43,858 nt of DNA from Pirellula staleyi DSM 6068 (lineage in GTDB: Bacteria > Planctomycetota > Planctomycetia > Pirellulales > Pirellulaceae), in contig CAMCMB010000058.1 in assembly GCA_945875845.1 (NCBI GenBank), positions 1-43,858 on the forward strand, written 5' to 3'. This document shows, in pieces, positions 30,501 through 34,140 of this stretch. Under the pieces are notes generated by a model, which was given only the letters and a program-made list of their open reading frames with translations, ran no database searches and was not told where the DNA came from. Both the position numbers and the translations under genes were made by a program. Numbering within the stretch: position 1 is the first letter of the stretch; each line of letters starts with the position of its first letter.

Positions 30501-33500
30501 GGTACTGTTCCAGCTGCTGAGCTTTGCGGACGAGGAACTGGCGTTACAGAATCTAGACGTTTCGCGTCTGCCGACTAGCAGCCAGCGAGCAAGGTTTGAT
30601 CTGCAGATGCACGTGTGGCAGCAGGACAAAACCCTCCGCGGCCGCGTGGTCTACAGCACAGACCTGTTTGATCACTCCACCATCGAGCGTATGGTGGGCC
30701 ACTTCATCACGCTGTTGCAAGGCATTGCAGCGGATGCAGACCGGCCAATCATCGCACTGCCGTTGCTGACTGAGCCGGAGCGTCATCAGCTGCTGGTGGA
30801 GTGGAACGATGCCGCCGTGGACCATCCCCGCGACAAGTGCGTCCATGAGCTGTTCGAGGAACAGGTGGAGCGGACGCCTGAAGCCATCGCCACGATCTTT
30901 GAAGAACAAGAACTCACGTATCGCGAGGTCAACACCAGGGCCAACTGCCTGGCGCAGATTCTGATCGGGCTGGGAACCGGACCGGGGATCCTGGTTGGTC
31001 TGTGCGTCGAGCGTTCGATCGAAATGGTGGTCGGTGTGTTGGGCATTCTCAAGGCGGGCGGGGCTTATGTTCCTCTAGACCCGGAATTGCCGAGTTCGAG
31101 GCTGCGCTTCATCGTGCAGGACGCTGATCTGAGGTCGGTTGTGACGACGTCGCAACATAAGCCTTTGTTCAAGGCGGAATCCTGCGATCTCATTCTGGTG
31201 AACGAGTTGTCAAATTCGCGAGCATCGGAGACGGCAAATCCCGTTTCCAGGGCCTCCCTCTCCGATCCGAACTATCTACTCTACACCTCAGGTTCCACCG
31301 GCCATCCGAAAGGAGTCATCGTTGAGCACGGCCAACTCCTCAACTATGTGCAAGCCGTCGTTGCAAAATTCGGGATGAGCGGCGGCGGAGCATACGCAAT
31401 GGTCCAGCCGTTGACTGTGGATTCATCGCAAACCATGATTTTCCCGGCGCTGGGCTGGGGAGGCGTGCTTCATCTGATTTCCCGCGAGTCCGCACTGGAC
31501 GCGTCAGCCTTGGCCAACTATTTTGACCGCCACTCCATTGACTATCTCAAAATCGCTCCATCGCATTTGTCAGCACTGCTCACAGTGGGCCAACCTCGGC
31601 GACTACTGCCGACGCGTGCGTTGATTGTGGGTGGAGAAGCGATGCATTGGACTCTGGTGTCGCGACTGGCGGATCTCCAGCCGAGCTGTCGCGTGTGGAA
31701 CCACTATGGTCCGACGGAGACCACGGTAGGGGTCTTTACTTATCCCATCAACTTGGTCGATGACAAGCATCGCGGCAGCAGCGCGACAGTCCCCATCGGT
31801 CGCCCCCTGGCCAACGTCACCTGCTACGTGCTTGACAATCACGGCAGCGCCGTACCGATCGGAGTCGCCGGCGAACTGTACATCGGCGGTGAAGGGGTAA
31901 CACGCGGTTACCTGAAACGACCAGAATTGACCGCACAACAGTTTATTCCCGACCGTTTCGCGAACTCGGATCAGGCGAGGTTGTATCGCAGCGGCGACTT
32001 TGTGCGCTGGCTGCCGGGAGGTGAAATTGAGTTTTTGGGGCGGCAGGATGGCCAGGTGAAGATTCGCGGCATCCGTATCGAGACCGGCGAGATCGAGGCG
32101 GCGCTGCACGAGCATGCTGAGGTGCGGGAGTCCGTCGTGATTCTGCGAACCGGGACAACAGGCAACCCATTTCTCGCTGCGTATGTTGTTCCACGCACAG
32201 GCTGTTCGCCATCGATACAGAGTCTGCGGGAGTTGCTGTCCAGACGACTGCCAGAAGTTATGCAGCCGACGGCTTACCTGTTCCTGGAGTCGCTACCACG
32301 CACCCCTCACGGCAAGGTGAATCGACAGGCTTTACCGGCACCCGACGAATCACGTCCGGAACTGGAAACGGACTACGTCGCACCGCGGAATCCGATTGAA
32401 GTACAACTCAACGCTATCTGGTGTGATGTTCTCGGCCTTGCACAGATTGGCATTCACGACAATTTCTTTGCCCTTGGCGGGCATTCGCTGCTGGCGACGC
32501 GCGTCATTGCACGGATCTCGTCCGCATTGCGGGTCGATCTGCCGATGCGGAAACTGTTTGAATCTCCCACAATTACGGAATTTGCCAGTGAGATTGAGAC
32601 GCTCCGCAGCGGCGGACTGATTGCCAACAGCACGGCTTTGATGCGTATTGACCGGGGCCAGATTGATCGTCTGCCGTTGTCGTTTGCGCAGCAGCGGCTA
32701 TGGTTCCTGGAGCAAATGGAGGGCGAACTGACGGCGTACAACATGCCGTATGGCTGGAAGCTGCGAGGGTCTCTGGATGTGGAGGCGTTGCGGCGGGCCC
32801 TGGAAGAGATTGTGCAGCGGCACGAGCCGCTGCGCACGACGTTTGCCATTCTCGACGATGCCCCGGTGCAGTTGATTCAGCCGAGCGGGCGATTCGAGTT
32901 GTTGGTCGAAGATCTCAGTTCCTTCGCATCAGAAGTACAGGCCGCAGAGATCCAGCGATGCTGTGGCCTGGAGGCGGAGAAGCCATTTAACCTGAGCACC
33001 GACCTGATGCTGCGAGCGTCCCTGCTGCATCTGGCTGACGACGAGCATCTGCTGCTGGTGACGCTGCACCACATTGCCAGTGATGGCTGGTCGCAGCGCG
33101 TGCTGTGGCGTGAACTGGCTGGCCTGTACGACGCGTACAGCTGCGGTGCGGAATCGAATCTGCGGGAACTGCCTGTGCAGTATGCCGATTATGCGATCTG
33201 GCAACGCAGTGAACTCAAAGGCCAGCGACTCGAACAACTGCTGCAGTACTGGCGCGAGCAACTGGCTGGTGCGAGCGTGCTGGAGTTGCCGACGGACCAC
33301 CCGCGTCCCGCTCGGCCGACCTATCGCGGCGCTAAACATCGTTTCGAACTGCCGGAGGCTTTGGTCTCGCAATTGAAGCTTTTTAGCCAGACGGCTGGTG
33401 TGACGCTGCATATGACACTGCTGGCAGCCTTCCAGACACTGCTGTCTCGCTACAGGATCCTGCAATTGAATACGGAACCGCATCTACAGTGGGGCATCGA

Positions 33501-34140
33501 GCAATTTGCGGACGCATTCGCCCTGGAAGTGGAGCGAGCGGCAGCGTCGGGCCCAATCATTATCGTAGGGTATTCCTACGGTGGATTGAATGCGTTTGCG
33601 CTAGCAGTACGCTTGCGACGGAGAGTTGGGCAAAGCGTCGAGTTGGTCATGATTGAGCCTTCCGTGCCGTCTTGGAAACATAACCTTGCCCACACGCCTA
33701 CAGAGTCACGCACGGATCGGATCGGCCGACATTTGGGAAACCTGCGGGCTGGCGGTGCTAAGGGATGGTCGACGTACATGATGGAAAAGGTGTCATGGGT
33801 TGTATGGCGGCAAAAGGAGCGTTGGAAGCGTTGGCTCATCCTCTGGAAAGTCAAACTCAATTTGCCGCTCAAACCAGTTCAAAGACAGAAATATAACGAG
33901 GCGACGTATCGCCGAAATATTGTCAATTATTCGATTGAAAATGTGCCCGGGGACGCACACTTGCTCGGCTCTGCTGAATATGTTCGCAGGTATAAGGATT
34001 GTTGGCGCAGGGCGGTAGAAGGCGAGTGCCGAATGAGAGAGTTGACGAACATCTCCCATCACTTAGACATCCTCGATCCCGCAAAGTCGGATGAGTGGAT
34101 TGGTTTCCTAGCTGAGCTCGCCGGCAGTGCGAAGCAATGA
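27529..34140 (+). CDS. Two-module non-ribosomal peptide synthetase with a chimeric C-terminus
   Basis: About 2203 residues from the ATG at 27529, which has GAGG five bases upstream. The frame is open in phase back to 27358 through a ligase remnant, and a TTG at 27385 is a longer alternative. In 27529 numbering, domains are: A1 about 20-520 ([26 protein letters not shown], GKIDR); PCP1 FFELGGDSL near 565; C1 about 645-1100 (HHIASDGWS); A2 about 1110-1610 ([29 protein letters not shown], GKVNR); PCP2 FFALGGHSL near 1646; the first half of C2 (HHIASDGWS), stopping after LLSRYR near 1975; then a type I thioesterase from mid-domain, with GYSYGG and SHHLDIL. C2 and TE appear fused by deletion. The PPTase upstream is the probable activator. 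The product is unknown and activity doubtful. Confidence 0.88.
   Translation: [2203 protein letters not shown]

Follow-up and report, generated by a model that had tools for sequence, protein, structure and literature searches.

The window, a contig of 43,858 nucleotides (nt) from Pirellula staleyi DSM 6068 (CAMCMB010000058.1, assembly GCA_945875845.1), harbors a gene for a non-ribosomal peptide synthetase (NRPS) on the forward strand (27385-34140), in which a condensation domain is joined to the interior of a thioesterase. The gene consists of a single open reading frame (ORF) encoding 2251 amino acids (aa), and its true start is probably located downstream of the TTG at 27385. Two condensation (C), two adenylation (A), and two peptidyl carrier protein (PCP) domains and one thioesterase were matched in the product by Pfam, in the order A-PCP-C-A-PCP followed by a C fragment and a thioesterase fragment. 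The core motifs were kept in both A, both PCP, and both C domains. The coordinates of the domains and of neighboring features are summarized in Table 1.

Table 1. Features of the NRPS locus, with positions in the window.
Feature	Position	Strand	Remarks
4'-Phosphopantetheinyl transferase gene, upstream of NRPS	26477-27196	+	Pfam
Initiation module A1-PCP1	27568-29355	+	Motifs including FFELGGDSL; limits approximate
C1, complete condensation domain	29470-30795	+	PF00668 7-456 of 456
A2, adenylation domain	30853-32316	+	PF00501 residues 1157-1510, PF13193 residues 1569-1644
PCP2	32407-32589	+	PF00550, residues 1675-1735
C2 fragment	32665-33453	+	PF00668 3-266 of 456, HHIASDG kept
C2 tract like own C1 (columns 121-180)	33031-33210	+	C1 97% in both blocks vs. 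C2 of P0006 80% and 97%; limits approximate
C2 tract nearer P0001/P0009	33211-33453	+	87-100% vs. C2 of P0006 77-100%; limits approximate
Join codon AGG (Arg 2024)	33454-33456	+	AG, C-domain side; last G or next ATC starts thioesterase part
Thioesterase fragment from ILQLN on	33457-34137	+	GYSYGG and SHHLD kept; without first ~33 residues of relatives
Remnant of 3' end of second phosphopantetheinyl transferase	34130-34219	+	90 nt, 73% to gene 26477-27196; overlaps thioesterase stop

The active-site motif HHxxxDG was present in both C domains as HHIASDG (residues 826 and 1895). C1 and the C domain of a related protein, P0002, covered PF00668 (about 450 residues) at full length, the latter from 4 to 456, whereas the second C domain (C2) stopped at position 266. 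The tail that follows C2 corresponded to positions 47-119 of 226 in PF00975 (31.7 bits within the full protein, 34.9 bits for the tail alone; cut-off 26.4) and contained the nucleophile elbow GxSxG as GYSYGG at residue 2062. An earlier note on this DNA had described a truncated second C domain fused in frame to the middle of a thioesterase, with the frame left open; the domain limits, the coordinates, and the reading frame all agreed with that description. The Pfam start at position 47 was dropped as a sign of truncation, since in the intact proteins P0126 and P0002 the match likewise begins at 47, and in P0003 it begins at 34. The loss at the thioesterase start is therefore based on alignment to relatives.

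At the join (CTACAGGATCCTGC), residues 2019-2030 are encoded by CTG CTG TCT CGC TAC AGG ATC CTG CAA TTG AAT ACG. The counterpart in C1 is CTGCTGTCTCGCTACAGCGGGCAGGAC, in which TAC AGG ATC is represented by TACAGCGGGCAGGAC and the bases at the break are TACAG-CGGG. Identity of the window to the continuation of C1 drops to 24% past the join. On the thioesterase side, eight of nine relatives carry Thr directly ahead of ILQLN (VLKLD in P0003) and one carries Gly, and the fusion has AGG at this place. The C side could thereby account for TACAG at most, and the thioesterase side for no more than the final G of the Arg codon, which would leave no base in common. As far as C1 and the residues of the relatives can stand in for the parent DNA, no run shared by C domain and thioesterase was found at the break, and a repeat collapse thus appears unlikely.

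Intact relatives were identified for each side of the join. On the left, P0006, listed as a partial protein from a Planctomycetota metagenome-assembled genome, was 96.8% identical to window residues 33-2023 without gaps (64 differences in 1991 residues), and it runs on as a normal C domain for 57 residues past the join position before its sequence ends. On the right, the thioesterase part exhibited 87% identity to P0001 and P0002 over 227 residues, 86-89% to P0121-P0126, and 60% to P0003. The part before the thioesterase nucleophile, incomplete in the window, was complete in all of these nine proteins, with the thioesterase start preceded by PCP sequence (in P0125, by a PCP end alone). In P0126, for instance, ILQLN follows a stretch of 33 residues (123-155) that runs from FLRVL to Thr, at the place where the window has C domain. 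The residues between the two joined points amounted to 822 aa in P0002, 826 aa in P0003, and 1264 aa in P0001, the last of which includes an extra C domain (read by eye). The second half of C2, an A-PCP, and the thioesterase start, all proposed in the earlier note as deleted, are thus found in place in these relatives. P0002 itself has the same sequence as P0009 in its first 572 residues and as P0001 in the last 804 of its 1359, a pattern of module shuffling or assembly switching.

No further copy of the A-PCP or thioesterase start of P0002 was detected in the own genome, where the best match outside the contig was a different A-PCP (36%). Apart from the two in this gene, the only C-domain match in the own genome was one below the cut-off on contig C132. 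The thioesterase part was compared with 99 genomes including the own; 13 gave a match, the 12 others with scores of 27.4 bits or less, and a scan of a genome contig collection gave none. For A1, the same collection gave only a distant Archaeoglobus ligase (20% identical), and no close relative was present among 27 genomes of the genus including the own (best 36%). Plasmid records contained no match. P0241 was considered as another thioesterase lacking its start and was rejected; its sequence has no Met at the start, lies on a contig of 1501 bases, and was taken as cut by the contig end.

To place the join among C domains in general, the window was scanned with a profile of C1, as were 241 proteins and, from 64 of the 76 locus records, the open frames of 150 aa or more. 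The break position was reached by 535 C-domain copies, of which 522 continue for at least 40 residues, eight end with the sequence, and five stop. Counting identical copies once gave 517, eight, and five of 530, and an alternative count that includes some window-derived loci gave 526, eight, and five of 539. The five that stop were those of the window, P0081, P0139, P0228, and P0176. By eye, the continuations of the latter four look frameshifted, and only the C domain of the window, among the 535 copies, joins a thioesterase. Two database searches were also inspected, with the best 120 of 2707 and the best 120 of 204 matches listed; no listed match spans both sides of the join. A recognised C-thioesterase type with the same join in independent genomes, which according to the earlier note would speak against a deletion, was not seen among the listed matches or the loci examined. 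Of 511 local alignments, five extended across the join with seven or more residues on each side. The best of them, P0067, proved to be a regular C domain whose alignment contains a gap of 9 residues, and the other four (20.8-25.4 bits) were taken as chance on their scores.

The same locus was found in a genome of the same genus (G016). It matches the left flank of the window (21700-25392) at 90% over 3.7 kb and the region 26542-27300, comprising the phosphopantetheinyl transferase gene and beyond, at 92.6%. At 27300, the G016 sequence (locus L028, contig G016:C80) departs from that of the window and leads in frame into a C domain (DSLRELYPLTLAQRDIW), followed by an A domain up to the contig end. 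This C-A region corresponds to residues 1846-2584 of P0001 (95.7% over 739 residues, no gaps), and no other C domain above the cut-off was detected in G016. By sequence, then, the sister genome has at the same locus the modules found ahead of this thioesterase in P0001, which favors a parent resembling P0001, with close to 3.8 kb lost. The frame in G016 itself opens with its own join on the 5' side, which differs from that of the window.

The sequence of C2 upstream of the join was found to be mosaic. The differences to P0006 numbered 43 in residues 33-1884 and 21 in residues 1885-2023. The comparison covered six C domains, taken 30 columns at a time, with further C domains of P0001, P0003, and P0009 left out. 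In columns 1-120, C2 showed 97-100% identity to C2 of P0006; the following 60 columns resemble the own C1 (Table 1), and in columns 181-240 P0001 or P0009 (87-97%) was nearer than P0006 (77%). Beyond column 240, the blocks do not discriminate. This mosaic likely reflects gene conversion from C1, in the tract at 33031-33210, together with exchange with another C domain.

A deletion is indicated by the two fragments, the open frame, and the relatives intact on each side; in addition, the search of the own assembly gave no copy of the missing piece, and the matches listed from the two database searches include no second case. The missing domains are carried by P0006 on the left and by P0001-P0003 and P0121-P0126 on the right, with G016 as a further case at the locus itself, and the frame is kept. 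Taking all its forms together, a real deletion is likely, and the form we favor is a recent, in-frame, and disabling deletion by the joining of non-homologous ends (probability roughly 0.7). The lost DNA, approximately 2.5 kb in all, would have comprised the latter half of C2, one A and one PCP domain, and some 33 residues from the start of the thioesterase; with a P0001-like parent, it would have amounted to 3.8 kb and included one further C domain. We infer the ancestral domain order, the joining mechanism, and the functional effect from these comparisons.

Several observations weigh against this explanation. The position of the break on one side was derived from protein sequence, and the loss implied by P0001 exceeds that from P0002 and P0003. 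No thioesterase match was found in G016, and its matches to the right flank of the window are short and weak; synteny with G016 is thus seen on the left side only, and the comparison extends no further than its contig end. Moreover, the join is present in one assembly only, and the mosaic upstream of it could also mark a chimeric assembly.

These last two points would also suit an artefact, in the form of a chimeric read or library molecule or of a misassembly among related NRPS genes of a mixed population, which we consider unlikely. The genome (7.0 Mb) is fragmented into 149 contigs with 3.55% contamination, the join is absent among the database matches listed, and the region looks hard to assemble, as P0006 breaks off soon after the join position and the G016 contig ends inside the NRPS gene. 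Identical runs of 43, 39, 27, and 23 nt between C1 and C2, within 29893-30049, offer switch points for the assembly path, and C2 is mosaic there. A chimeric assembly could mimic the mosaic in these shared runs but could not produce the join itself. A collapse requires a run common to C domain and thioesterase at the break; none was seen, and the 17-nt run of C1 and C2 that ends at the break is not common to the thioesterase. Further, no GATC is present near the break in the C1 counterpart, which stands in for the left parent, so that Sau3AI-type fragment joining is not indicated. No contig of the own assembly was found to carry the missing piece, and the frame was kept, which has a one-in-three chance.

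A ligase-like stretch is located in frame before A1 (GWFRTADLGRRDQDGYY...RKKEMINRGGENISPREIDEVL; 27385-27560); it was named acyl-CoA-ligase-like by eye, and a Pfam search on 89 residues gave no match. Judged from its protein, P0006 appears to lack 151 nt there, with its sequence joined between two copies of CAATCGA (at 27329 and 27480 in the window), and G016 shows a third form of the region. The locus seems prone to deletion. The earlier note was right on the join itself, but it had missed the mosaic C2 and the other joins at the same locus, here and in G016.

With scars at both gene ends, namely the ligase-like fragment and the transferase remnant after the thioesterase stop, and with G016 carrying its own 5' join, the gene could be viewed as a long-dead relic in which the C-thioesterase join is one of many decay scars. 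This is very improbable, as 2251 codons are open, 1991 residues align to P0006 without a gap, the core motifs are intact, and private changes are not in excess in the thioesterase part. The nine others agree at 116 positions, and the thioesterase fragment departs from them at 2 of these; in the same consensus test, the eight close relatives differed at 0-4 of 114-118 positions and the distant P0003 at 38 of 152. This lack of excess change shows no sign of old decay and suggests that the deletion is recent.

An element of approximately 90 nt that forms a hairpin flanks the NRPS gene in direct orientation (26413-26500 and 34229-34313). Besides the copy at 26413, it was found at no fewer than 40 places in the genome, that at 34229 included (best 40 of 154 candidates scored), and it folds as single-stranded DNA (z -4.1). 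The genome gave 19 matches to Y1 transposases, 17 of them above the cut-off, and the element may therefore be of the REP/RAYT type. No Rfam match was obtained within the window. The neighboring genes of the window include PSCyt/PSD-type genes, which, like the name under which P0006 is listed, point to a planctomycete.

Following the favored deletion, A1-PCP1-C1-A2-PCP2 would still load and join two residues, given the intact core motifs. The half C2, without most of its C-terminal lobe and without an acceptor module, would not work, nor would the thioesterase fragment, which is without one strand and one loop; the lost loop presumably carries the oxyanion hole. A dipeptide would leave slowly, by hydrolysis or its own cyclisation, or would stay bound. 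What remains is most likely an assembly line of dipeptide length that lacks a functional release domain.

Alternatively, the C fragment might give a helix before the thioesterase strand ILQLN in a working hybrid that acts in release or transfer, although we give this very little credence. No more credible is a stronger version, in which half C domain and thioesterase fragment would form a single chimeric alpha/beta fold, with a C-domain helix in place of the lost thioesterase start. Such a fold would release a shortened peptide and would be a new type of domain, created by one deletion between non-homologous points. In a low-confidence model, a predicted C-domain helix (246-260) does lead into a predicted strand (262-267, ILQLN); GYSYGG and SHHLD are kept, and the thioesterase part is without excess change at shared positions. 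On the other hand, the thioesterase start and C2 positions 267-456 are both missing, and no other such form was seen among the matches listed and the loci examined. In the AlphaFold2 model of the fused tail (12 alignment rows), block means were 75-93 for the greater part of residues 21-160, after which they mostly fell under 50. The intact control P0126 (seven rows) had a mean predicted local distance difference test score of 36.8, so the low values over the thioesterase in the fused tail are uninformative. A 42-row alignment put C-domain tails under the thioesterase and was left out of the modelling. Among solved structures, the intact thioesterase matched those of EntF and PikA4 weakly (best E value 0.0019).

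The favored explanation makes this locus a fresh, probably failed NRPS deletion caught with its frame open, beside a C1-like tract and at a place where the sister genome has a different join. Loss of NRPS modules is usually visible only in survivors that still work, and the present case illustrates the raw material of NRPS evolution. It also calls for caution in the automatic prediction of products from such clusters. A hybrid, if active, would represent a novel route to a release domain; no evidence here favors activity.

Compared with the known families, C2 matches PF00668 with HHIASDG but without positions 267-456. Among PF00975 proteins, the thioesterase fragment is closest to P0001, P0002, and P0121-P0126, being 86-89% identical from ILQLN to the end with GYSYGG kept, but the window is without the approximately 33 residues before ILQLN and has a C fragment instead of a PCP in front. 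The nodularin synthetase, which likely arose from microcystin synthetase by deletion, is reportedly a working enzyme. There, likewise, module-sized DNA was lost from an NRPS gene; the window differs in that its break falls within the C domain and the thioesterase at unlike positions, which should disable both. In the excerpted text of PMC8097286, a deletion of two mcyA/mcyB modules is described as likely involved in nodularin evolution (citing Rantala et al., 2004), and intragenomic recombination is reported to occur in mcy genes, with most exchanges in the A core domain. The tract of C2 that matches C1 is alike in kind to this recombination, but by that text the exchanges there are mostly in the A core domain, whereas the one here is in a C domain. 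In an excerpt from PMC6737921, a fungal A-T-C module with truncated C appears as an abbreviation in a legend, and no C-thioesterase join was seen in that part. The case in the window is most likely a known kind of event, an in-frame deletion of NRPS modules, with an unusual and probably disabling break.

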